Positions 25,683-35,953 of a DNA stretch of 61,389 nucleotides are shown here, piece after piece; position 1 is the first letter of the stretch, and every line of letters starts with the position of its first letter. The stretch spans positions 1 to 61,389 of the IMG/VR virus record IMGVR_UViG_3300031841_001859. One strand, given 5' to 3'. Under the pieces are notes generated by a model. The model worked only from the letters and a program-made list of their open reading frames with translations, was not told the origin of the DNA and searched no databases. The position numbers and the translations under genes were made by a program. Source of the stretch: a virus.

Positions 25683-28600
25683 ATGGCAAATCTTCAAAGA
25701 AATTTTATAGCGGGCCGTATGAATAAAAGCCTTGAAGAAAGGCTTTTACCAAATGGTGAATATACAAATGCTATTAACGTAAGACTAGGTTCAACTGAGC
25801 AATCAGAAATAGGTTCAGTAGAAAACTCTAAAGGAAATACGAAACTTACAGAATTAGCTTACACCAACGGGACTAAGCTTAGCAACTCCGCAAGATGTAT
25901 TGGTTCTTTTGAAGATAGTGCTAATGAAACAATTTATTGGTTTGTACACGACCCTGCTTTTACACAAGGTGTAACAGGAAAACTTGATTTAATAGTATCT
26001 TATAATGTAAGGACCGGAGGGATAACATATCACATTATTAGTATTGATAATGGTGGTGGTGTAAATACAACACTTAATTTTAATCCATCTTTTTTAATAA
26101 CTGGAGTTGATAAGATAGATAATCTTTTGTTTTTTACAGATAATGTAAACCCACCTAGAGTAATAAACATAGATAGAAACTATCAAAATCCAACAGCTAA
26201 CACTTCAGGAAACCAACAGGACCAATTTGATAGAAGAGAGATATTAGTAGTAAAACAACCTCCTTTACAAGCGCCAACATTTCAATTAATACAAGCTAAT
26301 AACGAGGATTCATATATGACCGACAACTTTATTTGTTTTGGTTATAGATACAAATATGCTAACGCTGAATATTCGGCAACCTCACAATTTAGTGAACCAG
26401 CTTTTGCGCCTAAAGCTTTTAATTTTAGTGCTCAAAGTTTTGCTAATGAGGGAATGGAAAACAAGTATAATGCCGCTATAGTAACTTACAACTCAGGAAG
26501 TGAATTAGTAAAAGGAATTGATATTTTATATAAAGAGGCTAATGATTCAACCATTAAGGTTATTGAAAGAATAAGTAAAGCAGAAGAAGGATTATCAGAC
26601 AACACTTTTTACACATTTACGTTTACTGAAAGTAAAATCTTTTCTGTTTTACCTGAAAGTGAAATATTAAGATTATATGATAATGTACCAACGTTAGCAA
26701 AAGCACAAACACTTATGGCTAATAGATTGGTTTATGGAAACTATGTTGAAGGGTTTGATTTGAAAGATACTTTCAATCAACCATTAACACTTAGTTATAC
26801 TACATCATTAAGTCAATCTCAAATTGGTGAAGAAACATTACCTGTTACAACAGCTCAATCAAGCTTTACAGCATTTGGTTTTTCAACCACTATAAATGAT
26901 AGTGCTTTTAGAATTAATTTTTCAGGATTTGAAAGCTCTTTAGTAATAGGAGCAACAATAGATTTTTCATTTACATTTGAACATGACTCGTGGAGCGGTT
27001 CGAGTTTGCCTGACCAAACAACAGGACCAACTACTGTACATTTTAGCTATACACTAATACAAGATTTTACAAGCAGTGCTACTCCAATTAATGATTTAAT
27101 AGCAACCGCAGATTTCCAAGCAAAATTTGGAACACTAACAACAGGTATACAAACTGTAGCAAACGCACAAGCAGGCTCAGGAACTACATTAACAGATAAT
27201 TTTAATTTTCTTTTACAAGGACAATTAGGAACAGTTGCTCCACAATACGATATAAACCAAACAGGAAGAACTAATTCAACACCTGCTTTACCGTCAGCCG
27301 GAGAAGGAATAGCAGCAAGTGTAATATTGCCAGCAACCTTACAATTACAAATATTAGCAGCTCAATATGAAGAAACAGGAGTAGGAACAAATACAATTGT
27401 TGAGTATTTTAAAATTACTAATGCTACAGCATCAATATCTGAAGTGCCAAATTCAGGAAGTTTACATAGTAACAGAGGATATGAGGTTGGTATAATTTAT
27501 ATGGATAGTTTTAACAGAGCTTCTACTGCACTTGTATCAACAAACAATACAGTAAACATACCTTGTTCAGCATCTACTACAAAAAATGAAATTCTTGTAA
27601 GTATACCTGTTACACAAAGAGCTCCTAGTTTTGCAACAAGATATAAGTTTTGTATAAAGGCAGACAGAGACACTTATGATACCATTTACTCAAGTATATT
27701 TTTAGAAGATGATAATACTAATAATGTATACTTTTTACTGGAAGGAGACAATATAGGGAAAGTAAAAGATGGTGATAGGTTAATAGTTAAAAGAGATGTT
27801 AGTGGACCTTTATCTACTTGTACAGAAGCTACGGTGCTTGAAGTTAAAACACAAAACAAAGATTTCATAACAGTTACCTTAAATGGAAATGCAGTTCAAG
27901 TACCTGAAGGAGTTTATATGAAAATGAATAGTATTTCTTTTGAAGCTAAAATGGATGAAGATGATATTGTAGATGAAAAAGTACCAGCAATAAAAGCTAA
28001 AGCGGCTGGTAATTATCCGGTTATTGCTTATCCTTTTTTCTTAAGAGATGCTAGTGGAGCATTTACTTCTAATTATACTTTACCGATTGGAACAAGGGTG
28101 GTTATGCAGATAGAACAAACTAGAGTTGGAACAGGAAATCAATGTGAGCCAAGAAGCAGTATTTTAGAGCAAACTATAATTTGTAGTGATACTTACGCCA
28201 ACATACAAGAGTTTTTTAATAATGAAAACCTTCAAACTATTATTGAACAAAATGCTGTAGTATCTCCAGCTGATATTAATAATGTATATATATCAACAGC
28301 TTCTCAATCAAGCGGACTTCCATCAGGAGCAAATTCAGGTTCAAATGGAAGAAGCTCTATAACAAATATATTTGGTTCAACAGCAACCAGTCCTACATCA
28401 ACAAATTATTACAGACTACACGAAGATACCAGTACATCTCCTAATAGTTATTACCTACTTGTGTCAGGTACGGAAGGGTGTGCGTCCAGAAGCTCAAGAG
28501 GAGATTCACAGGTAAGAGTAGATTTTACTATCTACAGAAGAGATTCAGTAGTGGTATTTGAGACAGAACCAAAACCTGCTCTACCAGATTTATGGTATGA

Positions 28601-31600
28601 GAGTTCTCAATCTTTTGAAATAGATGTTTTAGGTGACCATTTAGGAAATGTAACAAATCAAGATATAGCTGCAGGAGTAGCAGGTCTTGTAAGAACTGAT
28701 TTTTCTAACTGTTTTGCATTTGGAAATGGAGTAGAAAGTTATAAAATTTTAGATGCTTCTTATGGTGAACAATTTAATTTAGGAAACAGAACACTAACTA
28801 CAGGAAATACAACTTTTCAAAAAGCTCATAGATTTGCAGACGTAACTTATAGTGGAGTATTTAATGATGAAACTAATGTAAATAAATTAAATGAATTTAA
28901 TCTTGGTCTAGCTAATTTTAAACCACTGGAAGAAACATTTGGTGATGTAGAAATATTGTATGCAAGAAGAGATGATATTCTGGTGTTACAAGAAGATAAA
29001 ATATCCTACGTATTAGCAGGAAAAGATTTATTAAGTGACGCAAGTGGAGATGGACAACTTACATCAGTTCCTGAAGTTTTAGGAAAACAAATTGCTCGAA
29101 TAGAGAACTATGGTATAAGTAATCATCCAGAAAGTTTTGCGGCTTGGGGAGAAAGTAAATTTTTTACCGATGCAAAAAGAAGTGCTGTAATAAATTTAGT
29201 TGGAAGTTCCGCTGCAAACGAGCAGCTTCAAGTTATATCTGAAGCAGGTATGAGAAGTTGGTTTAGAGATTTATTTACTGCTTCGTTTACTACTCAAAAG
29301 CTAGGAGCTTATGACCCTTACATGAATGAGTATGTATTAACCTCTAATACAATATTAAAACCAGAGGTAGCTGTATGTACAGCTTGTGGTGTAAGTAGAA
29401 ACATAACAATTACAGCAGGAGAAACTTTTATTTACTGTGTAGATTTAGAAGAGCAATTAGGGACGGTAGTAGTTAGATATAATATTCCTATTGAAGGTTC
29501 TCAAAATATTATTACTGAGGCTACATCTCAAGATATAGTTACAGAAACAGGAGACAATATAACAACAGAAGGTGGAGTGGGTGTAGTTGGTTATACAGTT
29601 ACAGCTTTATATGATGGTGGAAGCGTAAGTAGTGGGTTAGTATATACAAGCGGACAAATTACTTTTAATAAAAACTCAACAACAGTTAATCAGGTAGTTA
29701 TTGAAGTAAGTTCTAATGCAACTGTAGATGATACTATTGAAATAACAGTAGAATGTCCTTCAGGAACACTTCTTAATTTATATAGTATTTGTGTAACAGA
29801 TGCAATTGATGCAGGTAAATTTATCCACAATGAAGCTAGTTGGACAGACGGAAGTTTATTCTCTGCTACTCAATCAAATCTTGTTCCATTTGGCTCAGGA
29901 ACTGGTGCGTTTGTTATATCACAATACAACTTTATTAATGGAAACCAAGGAGTTGGTTTAATACCGACTAACGGTTCAGTAATGACAATTGCTACAAACA
30001 AAATAAACTTTGATGATTTTCAGTTTAACGCTACAAATAATAACTATGGTTATTTAAGAACTAACACAACTTATGCTAACACAGAAACTGACGTAACAAC
30101 ATTACTAGGATTAGTAAACAATATACCAATTAATACTGCTGGAGCTCCAGGTTATTACAAAGGTTCTTTTACTGTTCCCTCAACAGGTAACAACTTATAT
30201 TTAGTATATGATTACAGAAATCCACCAGCACCAACACCAACCCCACCTGTCTATGATTATAAACAATATCAGCAGTGTAACGATGCAACTGTTTTAACTT
30301 TTGTTAGAGGTGCTTCGGGGTATAGTTTCCCAGGATTTATTAAGTTTGATGGAGAATGTTACGAAAATCCTCAAACCACATCATCAGTATCAAATACTGA
30401 TATTGCACCTTTACCAACGTATGTGGACTGTGCTACTTGTTTAGCAACAGTACCTACGCCTACACCTACGCCTGTAACTTACATTTACAGAGAGTATGAA
30501 GATTGTGAGGATAATACAACTAAACAAATATTTAGATTAGAGGATGGTATTGGGGTTACATTTCCAGGTTTTGTAAAATACAATAATATATGTTACAACA
30601 ACCCTGCAACTACTGGTTCGACCAGTATTGAAAATGTGCCAAGTTTACAGTATGCTAGTTGTAGTGAATGTTTAGGAACTATCGCACCAACACCAACACC
30701 AACACCTACACCGACTCCAACACCTACGCCGCCTACACCGACATATTATTATTGGGCAGTTCAAGAATGTAGCGGAACTAATGTGATTCAAATAAGAACT
30801 ACTGACCCTGATGTTGGAAGTACAAAAATATCAGTTGAATTTGGAGGAGTTTGTTATGAAGTTCAATCAGGAGGTACTGTAAATACAAATGACATATCTG
30901 CTGCTTTTACTGATTGTACTGCGTGTGCTGGTACACCACCAACACCTCCACCGCCTACACCGACACCTACACCGACTCCAACACCTACGCCGCCTACTCA
31001 ATTATGGTATAGATTAACGTCGTGTGGCAACCATGGAGATTGTTGGTTACTAGCATCTCAAGCACCTACTTTTGACCAAAGGTTTGTTGATAGTGCTAGT
31101 AATATAAATTACTTTTATAGATATGCGGGTGATGCAGGTCAAACATATAGCCAAGGTGATTGTTCTGTACAGGCAGTGGGTACGGAAACAGGATGTCCTC
31201 CTGCGCCTACGCCTCCTACGCCACCATCACCACCTCCAACTCCTCCAGCTACTACAGATGTGGAGATTAGAGAGTGTGGCACAACATCGCCAACTTATAA
31301 TGTTACTGTAAACTTCAGCACATCAACTACAGGAGTAGCGTTTAAAGGAACAGGAACTGGAGGTGGTTGTGGAACTACATTTGATGGTTCAAGATGTTGG
31401 GAAGTTATAACATTAGGTGTTTCTGTAGGAAATTGTAACATTACTACAACTCAAATAGGTACTTGTGGTAATTTAACAGATTGTGCTCCACCACCTACAC
31501 CGCCTACACCACCTACTCCTACCCCACCTACTCCTCCTGCAACAGTATACGCAAGATATGGAGATTGTGCTACTGGAGGTAATGATATTATAACTGAAGT

Positions 31601-32024
31601 AAGCGGACCAGGGGGAACAATATTCCCGAATGTATTATTAATATCTGGTATATGTTATGAGTATTTAGACTTAGGAGGAGTAACAGGACCGTTGTACAGT
31701 AATTATACTAGTTACACTGATTGTGCTACTTGTCAGTCGGCAGCACCTACGCCTACACCGCCATCACCACCGACTCCAACACCAAGCTCTTGTTTTGCAA
31801 TAAACAATATAACAAGAAACAATATTAGTGCTAACGATGCTTGTGCAGCAACAAGATTTAATACACATTATTTTGATAATGCCCAATTCTGTGATGCAAC
31901 TCTTTATTATGGTACAGATTCTACTTGTACTAGTTTATATGGATTTGCTACTTATGTGACTAACGGTTCGTATACAAGATATTGGACGGGTACTTCTTTC
32001 CAAAGTTGTATAGGTTGTCCATAA
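25683..32024 (+). CDS. Giant tail/stabilisation protein with C-terminal Cys-rich modules on Pro/Thr linkers
   Basis: 2113 residues. The N-terminal ~1200 (starting MANLQRNFIAGRMNKSLEER, NGEYTNAINVRLGSTEQSE) is beta-rich and resembles the tail stabilisation proteins of crAss-like and P22-type podophages. Around 1275-1300 are ITE/TETG turns like those in the 5644 gene. From about residue 1515 to the end are seven Cys-rich modules of 65-78 residues, separated by linkers made of PT, PTP or PPTPP repeats. Modules 1, 2 and 6 share a YxxC, a FPGF-like strand, CYE or CYN and a final CxxC. This looks like a display region protruding from the particle. The following genes encode a prolyl-hydroxylase-type enzyme and a glycosyltransferase. 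Confidence 0.75.
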   Translation: MANLQRNFIAGRMNKSLEERLLPNGEYTNAINVRLGSTEQSEIGSVENSKGNTKLTELAYTNGTKLSNSARCIGSFEDSANETIYWFVHDPAFTQGVTGKLDLIVSYNVRTGGITYHIISIDNGGGVNTTLNFNPSFLITGVDKIDNLLFFTDNVNPPRVINIDRNYQNPTANTSGNQQDQFDRREILVVKQPPLQAPTFQLIQANNEDSYMTDNFICFGYRYKYANAEYSATSQFSEPAFAPKAFNFSAQSFANEGMENKYNAAIVTYNSGSELVKGIDILYKEANDSTIKVIERISKAEEGLSDNTFYTFTFTESKIFSVLPESEILRLYDNVPTLAKAQTLMANRLVYGNYVEGFDLKDTFNQPLTLSYTTSLSQSQIGEETLPVTTAQSSFTAFGFSTTINDSAFRINFSGFESSLVIGATIDFSFTFEHDSWSGSSLPDQTTGPTTVHFSYTLIQDFTSSATPINDLIATADFQAKFGTLTTGIQTVANAQAGSGTTLTDNFNFLLQGQLGTVAPQYDINQTGRTNSTPALPSAGEGIAASVILPATLQLQILAAQYEETGVGTNTIVEYFKITNATASISEVPNSGSLHSNRGYEVGIIYMDSFNRASTALVSTNNTVNIPCSASTTKNEILVSIPVTQRAPSFATRYKFCIKADRDTYDTIYSSIFLEDDNTNNVYFLLEGDNIGKVKDGDRLIVKRDVSGPLSTCTEATVLEVKTQNKDFITVTLNGNAVQVPEGVYMKMNSISFEAKMDEDDIVDEKVPAIKAKAAGNYPVIAYPFFLRDASGAFTSNYTLPIGTRVVMQIEQTRVGTGNQCEPRSSILEQTIICSDTYANIQEFFNNENLQTIIEQNAVVSPADINNVYISTASQSSGLPSGANSGSNGRSSITNIFGSTATSPTSTNYYRLHEDTSTSPNSYYLLVSGTEGCASRSSRGDSQVRVDFTIYRRDSVVVFETEPKPALPDLWYESSQSFEIDVLGDHLGNVTNQDIAAGVAGLVRTDFSNCFAFGNGVESYKILDASYGEQFNLGNRTLTTGNTTFQKAHRFADVTYSGVFNDETNVNKLNEFNLGLANFKPLEETFGDVEILYARRDDILVLQEDKISYVLAGKDLLSDASGDGQLTSVPEVLGKQIARIENYGISNHPESFAAWGESKFFTDAKRSAVINLVGSSAANEQLQVISEAGMRSWFRDLFTASFTTQKLGAYDPYMNEYVLTSNTILKPEVAVCTACGVSRNITITAGETFIYCVDLEEQLGTVVVRYNIPIEGSQNIITEATSQDIVTETGDNITTEGGVGVVGYTVTALYDGGSVSSGLVYTSGQITFNKNSTTVNQVVIEVSSNATVDDTIEITVECPSGTLLNLYSICVTDAIDAGKFIHNEASWTDGSLFSATQSNLVPFGSGTGAFVISQYNFINGNQGVGLIPTNGSVMTIATNKINFDDFQFNATNNNYGYLRTNTTYANTETDVTTLLGLVNNIPINTAGAPGYYKGSFTVPSTGNNLYLVYDYRNPPAPTPTPPVYDYKQYQQCNDATVLTFVRGASGYSFPGFIKFDGECYENPQTTSSVSNTDIAPLPTYVDCATCLATVPTPTPTPVTYIYREYEDCEDNTTKQIFRLEDGIGVTFPGFVKYNNICYNNPATTGSTSIENVPSLQYASCSECLGTIAPTPTPTPTPTPTPTPPTPTYYYWAVQECSGTNVIQIRTTDPDVGSTKISVEFGGVCYEVQSGGTVNTNDISAAFTDCTACAGTPPTPPPPTPTPTPTPTPTPPTQLWYRLTSCGNHGDCWLLASQAPTFDQRFVDSASNINYFYRYAGDAGQTYSQGDCSVQAVGTETGCPPAPTPPTPPSPPPTPPATTDVEIRECGTTSPTYNVTVNFSTSTTGVAFKGTGTGGGCGTTFDGSRCWEVITLGVSVGNCNITTTQIGTCGNLTDCAPPPTPPTPPTPTPPTPPATVYARYGDCATGGNDIITEVSGPGGTIFPNVLLISGICYEYLDLGGVTGPLYSNYTSYTDCATCQSAAPTPTPPSPPTPTPSSCFAINNITRNNISANDACAATRFNTHYFDNAQFCDATLYYGTDSTCTSLYGFATYVTNGSYTRYWTGTSFQSCIGCP
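30223..31788 (+). repeat. Seven Pro/Thr linker repeats within the tail gene
   Basis: Linkers at about 30223-30249, 30451-30472, 30685-30738, 30934-30996, 31201-31250, 31487-31540 and 31745-31788 encode runs such as PTPTPTPTPTPT and PPTPPTPTPPTPP. The DNA repeats CCWACDCCN-type hexamers, so slippage can change their length. They resemble plant extensin/mucin-like linkers that are hydroxylated and O-glycosylated. Confidence 0.85.
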
Positions 32025-32031
32025 TATTTTA

Positions 32032-32062
32032 TATCTTTATATAAATTAAATTAAATCTAATG
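32032..32062 (+). promoter_or_regulatory. Promoter-like box plus AT-rich leader
   Basis: TATCTTTA at 32032-32039 and AAATTAAATTAAATCTAATG at 32043-32062, ending in the ATG of the oxygenase gene. The leader is identical to that of the scaffold gene. Confidence 0.55.
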
Positions 32063-33316
32063 CACGAAATATCAAACTTTATCACACATGAAGAGTGTGA
32101 CGAACTCATAAAAATGATAGACGCAAACCACACCCGCTCATCTGTAGTGGTAGGTGGCACTGACCGTTCTGATATCACAGACCATAGAACATCAAGCACT
32201 TCAAATTTAGACCCTAATAATGTTATAATTAAAAGTGTTCATAAAAAAATAGCAGACTATTTAAATTTACCGATAAATAAAGGAGAATCTTTGCAAGGGC
32301 AGTTGTATGAACCGGGTCAATATTTTAAACCTCATCACGATTTTTTTAGTGGGCCTGCCTATGATATGCACTGTTTACAATCAGGAAACAGAACGCATAC
32401 TTTAATGATATATTTAAATGATGACTTTGAAGGTGGTGAAACTAACTTTCCTAAGCTATCAGAATCATTTAAAGCTGAAAAAGGAAAAGCGCTTTGGTGG
32501 AAAAATATGATGGATGGGGTTACTGTAGATGATATGCTTCATGAAGGACAACCAGTTGTGTCTGGTAAAAAATATATTGTTACATCTTGGTGGAGAGAAA
32601 ATGGATGGGATGGTGCTGGAGATGAACAAAAACATAAAGAGCTTACAGAAGAACCTGTAAGTGAAGTAGTGGAAGAGGAAAAAGTTTTAGAAAGCAAAGT
32701 GGTTAAGGTTAACAATAATGTTATACAATCAGACTCACCGCTTCCTAAATTAACACCCCTTGGTTTTGAATTAATAAAATGTCCAAGCGATATGTGGAAT
32801 TTAATTAAAGAGTGTTATGAGTTATTAAAATTAAAAGAAGTAGAAGAAAACTTTGACGGTAAAGACCATTATGTGCCAGGAGAAACTACAATGTTAAGTT
32901 TTGATAATTTACCTACAGTTAAAAATATACTACACAAACAATTAAAAGATGTGCACGAAAATTTTTGTGGCAGAAAACTTGACCCTAGTTTTGTTTACGG
33001 TATTAGGTCTTACAAAAAAGGTTCTAGTTTAACTGAACACACAGATAGAATCGAAACACATCACATATCCTCAATAATTATAGTAGATAAAGATTTAAGA
33101 TGTGGATGCCAAAATAAAAAATACGCAGATGACTGGCCTCTTGATATAAAAGGCCACGATGGTGAGTGGTATAAAGTTTATGCGCAGCCAGGAGATATGA
33201 TACTGTATGAATCGGCTGTGTGTGAGCACGCAAGGAAAGAACCGTTCGGCGGAAACTTTTTTAGAAACTTTTATATACATTACAAGTTAAATGATTTTAC
33301 ACTTCCTAGCTCCTGA
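32060..33316 (+). CDS. Double-domain 2-oxoglutarate/Fe(II) oxygenase, prolyl 4-hydroxylase type
   Basis: The 418-residue protein contains two oxygenase domains. Domain 1 (about 1-180) is prolyl-4-hydroxylase-like: iron ligands H92 and D94 (KPHHD), H161 (LHEGQPVVSGKKYIVTSWWR), 2-oxoglutarate-binding K170, and the MIYLNDDFEGGETNFP stretch typical of P4H. An acidic linker (190-225) follows. Domain 2 (about 230-412) has H327/D329 (EHTDR), H390 (CEHAR) and R402 (FFRNF), also complete. It lies between two proteins with long Pro/Thr linkers, making them obvious substrates by context. Phage P4H-like genes are known; two intact domains in one chain is less usual. Its 3' end overlaps the GT gene by 26 bases. 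Confidence 0.85.
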   Translation: MHEISNFITHEECDELIKMIDANHTRSSVVVGGTDRSDITDHRTSSTSNLDPNNVIIKSVHKKIADYLNLPINKGESLQGQLYEPGQYFKPHHDFFSGPAYDMHCLQSGNRTHTLMIYLNDDFEGGETNFPKLSESFKAEKGKALWWKNMMDGVTVDDMLHEGQPVVSGKKYIVTSWWRENGWDGAGDEQKHKELTEEPVSEVVEEEKVLESKVVKVNNNVIQSDSPLPKLTPLGFELIKCPSDMWNLIKECYELLKLKEVEENFDGKDHYVPGETTMLSFDNLPTVKNILHKQLKDVHENFCGRKLDPSFVYGIRSYKKGSSLTEHTDRIETHHISSIIIVDKDLRCGCQNKKYADDWPLDIKGHDGEWYKVYAQPGDMILYESAVCEHARKEPFGGNFFRNFYIHYKLNDFTLPSS

Positions 33317-33911
33317 AGATAAATCCAAATGGTCTCAAAAGTGGCACTACTGTTTAGACTCCTGGAAGAAATCACATTGCTGTATAAAAGTGTGGAATGA
33401 TACTGAAATCGATGAGTTTATTAAATGCAACGACCCAGAATTTTTTAAAGTCTTGGATATGCTACATAAGATATTTAAGCTTGATTATGTTAGGAGTTTA
33501 ATATTAGAAAAGATAGGAGGCGCATACATAGATATGGATGTAGAATTAATATCTCCTTTTATAAACCAAATCGATAGAAATAAAATTTATATTATTGGAG
33601 CTTCATCAGCAGATGAGGTTGTTCAAAACAGCTTAATGATTTCTCCTCCGTCAGATTTTTGGGCACGGTTTCTGACCTACTCCCGAAAAAATATTATTGA
33701 AAATTTAGAAGCAGTACGTGCTTATCCAAATTATGAAGAAAAGTTAAGAGGTACAATTGTTAGAAAAACCGTTGGACCTATTGCTTTATCTGAGTTTATT
33801 GAACAAGACAAAGAAAATGTAGAAATATTACCAGCAAACTTATTTAATAATTCACAAGGTATTTGTTTCACCAAACACCATCAAACAGGTATATGGGGCT
33901 TTATTGATTAG
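33291..33911 (+). CDS. GT32-like glycosyltransferase (DXD)
   Basis: 206 residues. The stretch KLDYVRSLILEKIGGAYIDMDVELISP (residues about 63-89, shown here in its key parts) has the arrangement of GT32 / Gly_transf_sug enzymes, with the metal- and nucleotide-sugar-binding DMD at 81-83 and W/H residues in the N-terminus. Such enzymes transfer hexoses from nucleotide sugars. The start at 33291 overlaps the oxygenase gene, implying coupled translation. A likely job is to glycosylate hydroxyl groups made on tail Pro/Thr linkers by the oxygenase. Host cell-surface modification is the main alternative. Confidence 0.8.
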   Translation: MILHFLAPEDKSKWSQKWHYCLDSWKKSHCCIKVWNDTEIDEFIKCNDPEFFKVLDMLHKIFKLDYVRSLILEKIGGAYIDMDVELISPFINQIDRNKIYIIGASSADEVVQNSLMISPPSDFWARFLTYSRKNIIENLEAVRAYPNYEEKLRGTIVRKTVGPIALSEFIEQDKENVEILPANLFNNSQGICFTKHHQTGIWGFID

Positions 33912-33927
33912 CACCAATAAATTTTCG

Positions 33928-33935
33928 TAAATTTG
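33928..33935 (+). promoter_or_regulatory. TAnnTTTG promoter box
   Basis: TAAATTTG 17 bases before the ATG at 33953, in the 41-base gap after the GT gene. Confidence 0.45.
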
Positions 33936-33952
33936 TACTTTAATTATATATA

Positions 33953-35524
33953 ATGGCAAACTGTATATCGTATGACTTGATTTGTCCTATTGGAGCAACA
34001 GGAGGAGAATGTAGATGGTCTATTAGTTGTTGTGATGGAAGTTTTCAAAGAGTTATACTTCAAGAAGGAGAAATTTCTACCCCTTGTATAGATAAGGATT
34101 CAACATTTTATAACGGAGAACCTGTAGCACAAAACTCTATATCAGGTACTTTTACTCCAGTAGATGTTCCATGTACAAGTGCTTGTGGTACAGTTAATCC
34201 AGCGCCAAATCCAACTCCGCCGAGTCCTCCGACTCCCCCTACACCGCCGAGTCCTCCGACTCCTGCGCCAACGCCAGCCCCTGATTATTGTTTAGGAGCT
34301 GAGAATGAAGTTACAATTCAAAATATTAGCGGAAGTAATAAGTATGTGTTTGGTGGAAACTATGGTACATACGGAACTAATGTAGGAACATACGTATTGA
34401 AAAACGTTCCGGCAGCACATCCAATTGCTATACAAAATTATAATTTAACTGGTTCAATTACATATACAGGTACAAATGCGGTTGGGCCTAAAGTTGGTTT
34501 AGATGGGAATACATATACATATTATTGGGGAGATGTAACAATTACTGTTCTTGGTTTTTATGGAACTATAAGTTATGAGTGTTACTATCATGGATATATG
34601 GGTGGTCAGAATAATCTAATTTATAATTCAACTACTTGTAGCGTACCAAGTCCAACGCCACCTGCTCCGACTCCGCCTACGCCTCCTACACCTAGTACAG
34701 TTCCTCCTGTGCCATCACCGGTTACAACGGAATATACTTTAACGTATGCTGGCAGTGTAAAAGGATGGCCCTCATTTTATTCTTATATACCAGAATATAT
34801 GATGGGTATGAATAATTATTTGTATTCTTTTAATGGTGGTAATTTATATAAACACAATACAAATGAAGTTAGAAATAATTTTTATGGCCAACAGTATGAT
34901 TCTCAAATAACAAGTGTGTTTAATCAAAACCCGCTAGAGAATAAAATATTTAAAACTATAAACCTAGAATCAGATTCTGCATGGACAGTTAACTCAAAGA
35001 CAGATATACAAGATGAAGGATATGTTGACTACAGGTGGTTTGAAAAGAAAGAAGGTGCATACTTTGCATACCTTAGAAAAACAAATCAAATACCAGCGCC
35101 TGATAATGAATTTGCGCTAAGGTCTGCTAATGGTATTGGAAAAACTTCTGGATGGAATTTACAAAGCAATGTGCTTACTGTAAACTTTTCTGTAAACCCA
35201 CTGGTATCTATTGGCGATATAGTTAGTATAGGTGATTATCTTTATTTTTCTGAACCTCAATATACCACTGTAAAATTTGCAGGACAAATAACTAATATTG
35301 AGGTAGATTTAAGAAGTGGTATAAACAGATTGTTTGCTAATACAAACATAACAGGTGCACAAACGATAGGTGTTACAGACCCCTATATGTTATACATTAA
35401 AAATATTGAGGCAGAAGTAAACGGTATGTTAGGTCATCAATTAAACTTTACACTTACAAATCCAAGTACAACTTCAGTTGAACTCTTTGCTGTAGAGGCT
35501 GAAGTTATGAAAAGCTATCCGTAA
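33953..35524 (+). CDS. Pro-rich tail protein with cupredoxin-like domain
   Basis: 523 residues. Residues 1-80 are Cys-rich (C4, C11, C20, C26, C27, C45, C74, C78). Linker 1 (82-110) is PxxP/PPTPP-rich. Residues 111-229 form a beta domain with a type-1 copper-site pattern: H156 in NVPAAHPIAI, then C210, H213 and M216 in SYECYYHGYMGG. Linker 2 (231-257) is again PT/PP-rich. Residues 260-523 are a larger beta-rich region, ending in FTLTNPSTTSVELFAVE, probably the particle-binding or receptor domain. Pro-rich linkers like those of the giant tail protein flank the domain. Copper binding is inferred from residues only. Confidence 0.7.
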   Translation: MANCISYDLICPIGATGGECRWSISCCDGSFQRVILQEGEISTPCIDKDSTFYNGEPVAQNSISGTFTPVDVPCTSACGTVNPAPNPTPPSPPTPPTPPSPPTPAPTPAPDYCLGAENEVTIQNISGSNKYVFGGNYGTYGTNVGTYVLKNVPAAHPIAIQNYNLTGSITYTGTNAVGPKVGLDGNTYTYYWGDVTITVLGFYGTISYECYYHGYMGGQNNLIYNSTTCSVPSPTPPAPTPPTPPTPSTVPPVPSPVTTEYTLTYAGSVKGWPSFYSYIPEYMMGMNNYLYSFNGGNLYKHNTNEVRNNFYGQQYDSQITSVFNQNPLENKIFKTINLESDSAWTVNSKTDIQDEGYVDYRWFEKKEGAYFAYLRKTNQIPAPDNEFALRSANGIGKTSGWNLQSNVLTVNFSVNPLVSIGDIVSIGDYLYFSEPQYTTVKFAGQITNIEVDLRSGINRLFANTNITGAQTIGVTDPYMLYIKNIEAEVNGMLGHQLNFTLTNPSTTSVELFAVEAEVMKSYP

Positions 35525-35531
35525 AAATTAG

Positions 35532-35539
35532 TATCTTTG
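35532..35539 (+). promoter_or_regulatory. TAnnTTTG promoter box; fixes the next start
   Basis: TATCTTTG ends seven bases before ATG 35546. A TTG at 35537 in the same frame lies inside this box, so the ATG is the better start and the mRNA may be nearly leaderless. Confidence 0.55.
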
Positions 35540-35545
35540 CATAGA

Positions 35546-35953
35546 ATGGAATTTAACATAAATGAATTAAATCCTTCTGATTATGAAGAAGTTTTGGTAA
35601 ATTGGTGGAAAGAATGGGGTTGGACTCCTCCACCGAAAGAATTTTTACCAGAAGATGGACAAGGAGGAATAATGGTTTCATACAAAGATAAACCTGTTTG
35701 CGCAGGTTTTGTGTATTTTACCAACTCAAAAGTATCGTGGGTAGAATGGATTATCTCAGATAAAAATGTAGATAAAAAATTAAGACACGATGCAGTAAAA
35801 CACTTGATTGGATTGCTGACAAGCATCTGTCAAGAACAAGGAAGTAAATTTGTTTACGCTATCCTTAAAAATGATAACCTAATGAAAACCTATGAAGAGT
35901 GGGGTTATGTACAAGGAGATGTAAACTGTAATGAAATGATAAAAAAAATATAA
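35546..35953 (+). CDS. GNAT-like N-acetyltransferase
   Basis: 135 residues with a GNAT-like order: an N-terminal helix, IMVSYKDKPVCAGFVYFT (strands 2-4), VSWVEWIISDKNVDKKLRHD (strand 4 and acetyl-CoA loop), LIGLLTSICQEQGSKFVYAI and LMKTYEEWGYVQG at the end. The Q/RxxGxG pyrophosphate motif is degenerate. It follows the second Pro-rich tail protein and could acetylate virion or sugar amines; the substrate is unknown. Confidence 0.65.
   Translation: MEFNINELNPSDYEEVLVNWWKEWGWTPPPKEFLPEDGQGGIMVSYKDKPVCAGFVYFTNSKVSWVEWIISDKNVDKKLRHDAVKHLIGLLTSICQEQGSKFVYAILKNDNLMKTYEEWGYVQGDVNCNEMIKKI

Follow-up and report, generated by a model that had tools for sequence, protein, structure and literature searches.

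A putative hydroxyproline O-glycosylation cassette within the split muzzle gene of an aquatic crAss-like phage

The window analysed here is an IMG/VR virus record of 61,389 bases (IMGVR_UViG_3300031841_001859), in which the genes for an oxygenase and a glycosyltransferase (GT) lie between two tail genes encoding proteins with Pro-rich linkers. This cassette probably specifies hydroxyproline O-glycosylation of the phage's own tail tip, with both the reactions and the substrate predicted from sequence. Hydroxylation and glycosylation of the linkers, first suggested from the letters of the window alone (the original prediction), was supported by the co-occurrence of oxygenase and linkers in related loci and, in sibling cassettes, by a match to the Pfam family of hydroxyproline O-arabinosyltransferase (HPAT), by GT60 enzymes, and by the fusion or adjacency of HPAT-like and 2-oxoglutarate (2OG) oxygenase domains. 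The five open reading frames on which the prediction was based were present as described and, with their linkers, are as follows.

25683..32024, + strand: muzzle N-terminal part (phrog_14478, 2.9e-210; orthologues phi38:1 gp97 and elemoC gp24)
30678-30752, 30927-31004, 31197-31256, 31482-31547 and 31737-31793, + strand: five detected Pro-rich linkers of the N-terminal part (55 prolines)
32060..33316, + strand: two-domain 2OG-Fe(II) oxygenase (PF13640, 2.6e-16), with a predicted N-terminal prolyl 4-hydroxylase (P4H) and a C-terminal second oxygenase
33291..33911, + strand: GT32-type glycosyltransferase (PF04488, Gly_transf_sug, 1.7e-9, 38.7 bits, cut-off 23; DMD at 81-83)
33953..35524, + strand: muzzle C-terminal part (PF25729, crAss_MUZ_C, 8e-20; phrog_38031, 1.1e-88)
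34205-34282 and 34646-34726, + strand: Pro-rich linkers of the C-terminal part (30 prolines)
35537..35953, + strand: small GNAT-like core gene, outside the modification cassette, at a position shared with P4H-less relatives

The portal and muzzle proteins of the window were akin to those of Cellulophaga phage phi38:1, the Flavobacterium elemo phages and Maribacter phage Panino, and the nearest relative was MW202828.1 from Manatee Spring (portal identity 74%). By this kinship, the aquatic window phage is classified as a crAss-like phage of Bacteroidota. Related IMG/VR loci, given L numbers below, were retrieved with four kinds of query: the oxygenase, the GT, the muzzle C-domain and an HPAT-like enzyme.

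The products of 25683-32024 and 33953-35524 had been taken for two tail proteins. Their tail nature and their linkers stood; as to their being separate proteins, the two genes instead derive, by sequence comparison, from a single ancestral crAss-like muzzle gene, the first from its N-terminal and the second from its C-terminal portion, because in phi38:1 and elemoC the PF25729 domain forms the C-terminus of a single long gene whose N-terminus matches 25683-32024. Both the N-terminal muzzle part and the PF25729 C-terminal domain were present in the window. The muzzle is a tail-tip complex whose structure has been solved in phi-crAss001 (PMC10172136). The split also occurs in relatives without P4H, MW202828.1 among them, with a linker-free adhesin gene in the gap.

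In the N-terminal part, the conserved region ends at about aa 1208 (GAYDPYMNEYVLT) and is followed by further domains, the end of the protein being an array of small Cys-containing domains with Pro-rich linkers between them; two shorter Pro-rich linkers lie immediately 5' of the five detected ones (30678..31793). The C-terminal part consists of an N-terminal head domain, Pro-rich linkers and then the muzzle C-terminal domain (aa 260-523). The Pro/Thr linkers reported for both proteins are real, with 112 linker residues in the N-terminal and 53 in the C-terminal part versus maxima of 12 and 13, respectively, among 200 shuffles of the same proteins.

The P4H domain possessed an R43-T44-S45 motif together with H92, D94, H161 and K171, the last four being invariant in 25 homologues. 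The two histidines and the aspartate were those named in the original prediction; its K170 was misplaced by one residue, the 2OG lysine (H-x10-K) being K171 by alignment to solved P4Hs. All 8 sequence matches in the PDB were P4Hs (best 7.5e-30), and the first 26 Foldseek matches to the oxygenase model were P4H chains, the best being 3gze, an algal P4H with (Ser-Pro)5 bound (E 1.2e-15). The model had a pLDDT of 87.9 and a pTM of 0.51, the latter probably low due to loose placement of the two domains. By sequence and predicted fold, the N-terminal domain is a prolyl 4-hydroxylase, for which peptidyl-proline hydroxylation is predicted. A 2OG oxygenase combined with a GT is also a known phage logic, and the pair might make a hypermodified DNA base in the manner of TET/JBP with a base glycosyltransferase. 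The domain matched P4Hs, including the RTS motif, and not TET/JBP, and the muzzle loci had no link to DNA metabolism genes; DNA hypermodification found no support and is extremely improbable.

The enzyme between the tail genes had been described by its P4H site; the same gene also holds a second 2OG oxygenase domain. This domain has its own H327-x-D329...H390, conserved across 25 homologues (one homologue has E in place of D), and because of this conserved site it is probably active. In L250 and L256 the second domain occurs alone, adjoining an HPAT-like gene, which suggests that it may be a prolyl hydroxylase too. A scan of genomes with the oxygenase turned up only single-domain or distant relatives. 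Relatives of the second domain were also seen in contigs of Acidimicrobiia/actinobacterial metagenome-assembled genomes (L279, L281, L282, L284 and L285), some near O-FucT- or GT60-like genes; in two of these a Pro-linker protein adjoins the oxygenase, and host genes or phage contigs are both possible. In L102 (5083-6294), the N-terminal RTS region of the P4H domain has decayed while HxD...H is intact.

Oxygenase and linkers were closely associated. The scans by oxygenase, GT and muzzle C-domain gave 147 distinct oxygenase loci, those from the HPAT scan being counted apart. A Pro-linker gene was in view at 134 of the 147, less than 300 bp upstream in 109 of these, and most of the other 13 were partial loci. 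Pro linkers were encoded by 249 of the 823 genes lying within 5 kb of an oxygenase, compared with 8 of 395 genes at greater distances and 5 of 497 genes in loci without P4H. In a homologous tail-adhesin family, linkers were found in 38/38 copies from loci with P4H versus 0/38 from loci without it. Relatives that keep the enzymes and lack Pro linkers, which would speak against the original prediction, were thus mostly not encountered, and the P4H-less relatives were linker-free. Cassette and linkers also occurred together in other tail contexts, namely contigs with tape-measure genes (L194, L162), beside a tail protein (L159 and L163-165), beside an Ig-like protein (L208) and on the myophage-like L153-L157. 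These contexts outside the muzzle phages are independent support for the association of oxygenase and linkers.

The enzyme following the oxygenase in the window had been described as a GT32-like glycosyltransferase with DMD at 81-83, and the PF04488 score over the cut-off bore this out. Its gene overlaps the hydroxylase gene by 26 bases. In sibling phages a GT60-GT32 fusion occupies this position, and the window enzyme shares 37% identity with the C-terminal half of that fusion. The gap between the hydroxylase gene and the next enzyme gene was at most 20 bp in 151 of 155 loci. Behind the constant oxygenase, GT32, HPAT-like, GT60 and O-FucT enzymes are exchanged, and further cassette enzymes were dTDP-glucose 4,6-dehydratase-like, epimerase, NodU-type carbamoyltransferase and radical SAM proteins. 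On the muzzle tree of 105 loci, no fewer than 23 changes in the core type of GT were counted; for example, L068 has HPAT versus GT60 with radical SAM in L069, with muzzle C-domains 99.6% identical. The number of PP per Pro in the linkers was 0.30 with GT32 and 0.03 with GT60, a difference that may follow clades. Oxygenase and linkers were present in L027-L029, with no GT between P4H and the muzzle C-terminal part. Searches of cultured phages with the window GT and with HPAT gave no matches.

Phages commonly encode GTs that change the surface of their host. The P4H might act on the tail linkers and the GTs on host surface glycans or proteins, for instance in superinfection exclusion, the two being brought together by module exchange; O-FucT, carbamoyltransferase and epimerases could all serve a surface glycan. 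Against this stand the coupling of the GT block to P4H across unrelated tail contexts, with genes overlapping or abutting, and the fusion of HPAT-like and 2OG domains described below, and such a division of labour is considered improbable.

Evidence on HPAT and GT60 came from the siblings, outside the window, in which no HPAT gene was found and the GT32-type enzyme stands alone. The HPAT family PF23452 matched in sibling cassettes at 5.5e-8 and up to 33 bits (cut-off 23.9), with 6 of 16 records over the cut-off, 10 of 16 at E<=0.01 and 0 of 14 control genomes. In the HPAT-like enzyme, D107xD109 was invariant in 29 sequences, and its model had a confident GT-A fold (pLDDT 91.8; best match to GT-A enzymes, E 1e-5). 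Among loci found by HPAT alone, 71 of 75 had a 2OG oxygenase nearby; of the remaining four, three end at the HPAT gene and L233 is without oxygenase. In the 720-aa fusion encoded by L275 (5992-8151), an HPAT-like domain is joined through a middle 2OG-like stretch to a P4H-like end, and a protein with a VVPPVVPP linker adjoins the fusion, while in L234 and L240 HPAT is paired with a one-domain P4H. A pattern scan of bacterial genomes for HPAT found none. GT60/GlcNAc enzymes (PF11397) were matched in sibling cassettes at 6.7e-78, 5.4e-76 and 3.2e-44; GT60 includes Skp1 Gnt1, a hydroxyproline-GlcNAc transferase that requires hydroxylated proline (PMC6939170).

Several observations weigh against hydroxyproline O-glycosylation of the linkers. 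To our knowledge, no GT32 enzyme is known to act on hydroxyproline; glycosylation of hydroxyproline by the GT32 enzyme in the window phage is only slightly favoured. The similarity to HPAT is modest, at 33 bits and for 6 of 13 members. In muzzle phages, P4H and linkers mostly stem from one or two gains on the muzzle tree, and because of this clustering the co-occurrence counts from these phages are not independent. The myophage-like records G017 (63 kb) and G018 (90 kb) encode P4H, HPAT and GT60, and no Pro linker was found in the whole records, which may be partial genomes. Lastly, the muzzle phages L092 and L096 possess T-rich Pro linkers (0.74 T+S), GT60 and a 762-aa double GT32 without P4H; Thr may be the glycosylation target there, and a natural switch from hydroxyproline to Thr glycosylation is possible.

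The oxygenase could also have another target, such as host EF-Tu, its association with linkers being hitch-hiking. The title of PDB entry 5v7y names EF-Tu as a substrate of a bacterial P4H. Erwinia phage Y3 and Sen-NF have single-domain P4Hs encoded away from tail genes, so not every phage P4H acts on tail linkers. There are also contigs with a cassette and no linker seen, including L187, L198 and others, in which the cassettes adjoin ribonucleotide reductase genes on myophage-like contigs. The nearly universal linker neighbour, the contrast in the adhesin family and the recurrence of the association in several unrelated tail contexts argue otherwise, and this explanation is very unlikely. As a separate observation, no Pro linker was found with the P4H-2OG cassettes of L236, L267-L269, L273, L187, L188 and L198, which carry HPAT with GT60 or O-FucT with carbamoyltransferase, several beside ribonucleotide reductase genes.

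A mucin-type system, in which the GTs act on linker Thr/Ser and the hydroxylase modifies only the polyproline backbone or acts elsewhere, would agree with the T/S richness of many linkers, with the presence in GT60 of a Trypanosoma cruzi polypeptide GlcNAc-transferase, and with L092 and L096. The composition of the linkers bears on this. Since the linker detector demands Pro, the test was rerun on all low-complexity stretches, defined as 18 aa with no more than 4 kinds of residue: near the oxygenase, 394 of 407 such stretches were Pro-rich and 2 were T/S-rich without Pro. Among non-Pro linker residues the T+S share ranged from 0.20 to 0.84, the rest being V, A or Q, as in PQPQPQ of L194 and SPVPSPVP of L241. 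Phages with P4H and T/S-poor linkers (V-P, A-P, Q-P) still have a GT (L165, L194, L057). Because the non-Pro residue varies freely among T, S, A, V and Q, a change that a Thr/Ser-directed system would hardly tolerate, Pro is likely the target of the system. Together with the HPAT-like partners and their association with the oxygenase, this leaves the mucin-type system unlikely. A collagen-like substrate for the P4H was rejected, as no Gly-X-Y was found near P4H and the stretches were of the X-P type.

Under hydroxyproline O-glycosylation of the muzzle, the two-domain oxygenase would hydroxylate prolines in the Pro-rich linkers that connect small surface domains in the split muzzle protein, and the adjoining GT, of GT32 type in the window, would attach or extend a sugar on the hydroxyprolines. 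The tail tip would thereby be surrounded by rigid arms with a coat of glycans. Across relatives, with the hydroxylase constant and the GTs exchanged, the type of glycan would change and the acceptor hydroxyproline would stay. Most likely the phage would benefit through resistance to proteases, through shielding or through a change in surface binding.

Two further genes assigned to the system in the original prediction do not belong to it. The GNAT gene, which has no Pfam match, is a core gene of the family at the same site after the muzzle in P4H-less relatives, and the FkbM methyltransferase gene (1020-1793) is 31 kb from the cassette and unlinked; in L197, an FkbM gene comes after O-FucT. 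At the window edge, 24-737 encodes the C-terminal part of a GroEL/Cpn60 chaperonin (PF00118, 1e-23, profile 286-488), and in relatives of the window phage an annotated GroES adjoins the terminase gene.

The proposed system resembles the hydroxyproline-rich glycoprotein pathway of plants and algae, in which P4H and HPAT act on extensin and arabinogalactan-protein motifs, in that the P4H fold is nearest to Chlamydomonas P4H-1 with (Ser-Pro)5, sibling cassettes match the HPAT family and the linkers are of X-Pro and PPTP type; it differs in that enzymes and substrate are encoded by a single phage operon, the window GT is of GT32 type and no Golgi is involved. For virion glycosylation in mycobacteriophages, we know of no report of a hydroxylase step. 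There, too, it has been proposed that phage GT genes modify the virion of the phage that carries them (PMC11256854). In the Skp1 pathway of Dictyostelium and Toxoplasma (PhyA and Gnt1 of GT60), a cytoplasmic P4H is followed by a GT60 enzyme, as in many siblings, but on a single site of a regulatory protein rather than on long repeated linkers of a virion protein (PMC6939170). Mimivirus collagen modification, with prolyl and lysyl hydroxylase and a hydroxylysine glycosyltransferase, is also virus-encoded hydroxylation and glycosylation of the virus's own structural repeats (PMC9546862), although it concerns collagen Gly-X-Y and hydroxylysine in a eukaryotic giant virus. Cyanophage clusters of 2OG oxygenase, O-FucT and carbamoyltransferase, e.g. 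in S-SCSM1, have a similar enzyme set in one region but as separate genes; the S-SCSM1 region (L215, 97943-110500) encodes O-FucT, carbamoyltransferase, sugar epimerases and a 2OG oxygenase akin to the second domain, and cyanophage proteins named 'ferrochelatase' match this oxygenase. The proposed substrate itself corresponds to the known crAss-like muzzle (phi-crAss001 gp44, phi38:1 gp97; PF25729; PMC10172136), except that in the window the gene is split, with the linker array and the enzyme genes inserted.

The logic of the pathway is already known in plants, algae and protists, and the bacterial-virus version is new as far as the literature searched shows, those searches having found no report of phage hydroxyproline glycosylation or of a bacterial HPAT. 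P4H genes belong to the abundant auxiliary genes of marine viruses, and according to a 2022 survey their use by viruses 'remains cryptic' (PMC9301287). The present reading offers a concrete answer, in which P4H would act on Pro-rich linkers in the tail of the phage itself and sugars would be attached by way of hydroxyproline. With somewhat less assurance than for the window itself, it appears fairly likely that bacterial viruses of several tail types modify their own tail tips by modular hydroxyproline O-glycosylation, in which the hydroxylase stays constant and the GTs (HPAT-like, GT60, O-FucT, GT32) are rapidly swapped, so that the glycan coats of the host-recognition arms can be exchanged. 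If true, this would be the first known example, going by the literature searched, of a bacterial virus that encodes hydroxyproline-linked glycosylation; HPAT-like enzymes would then exist beyond eukaryotes, and the part of the phage in contact with the host would have a mechanism for switching glycans.

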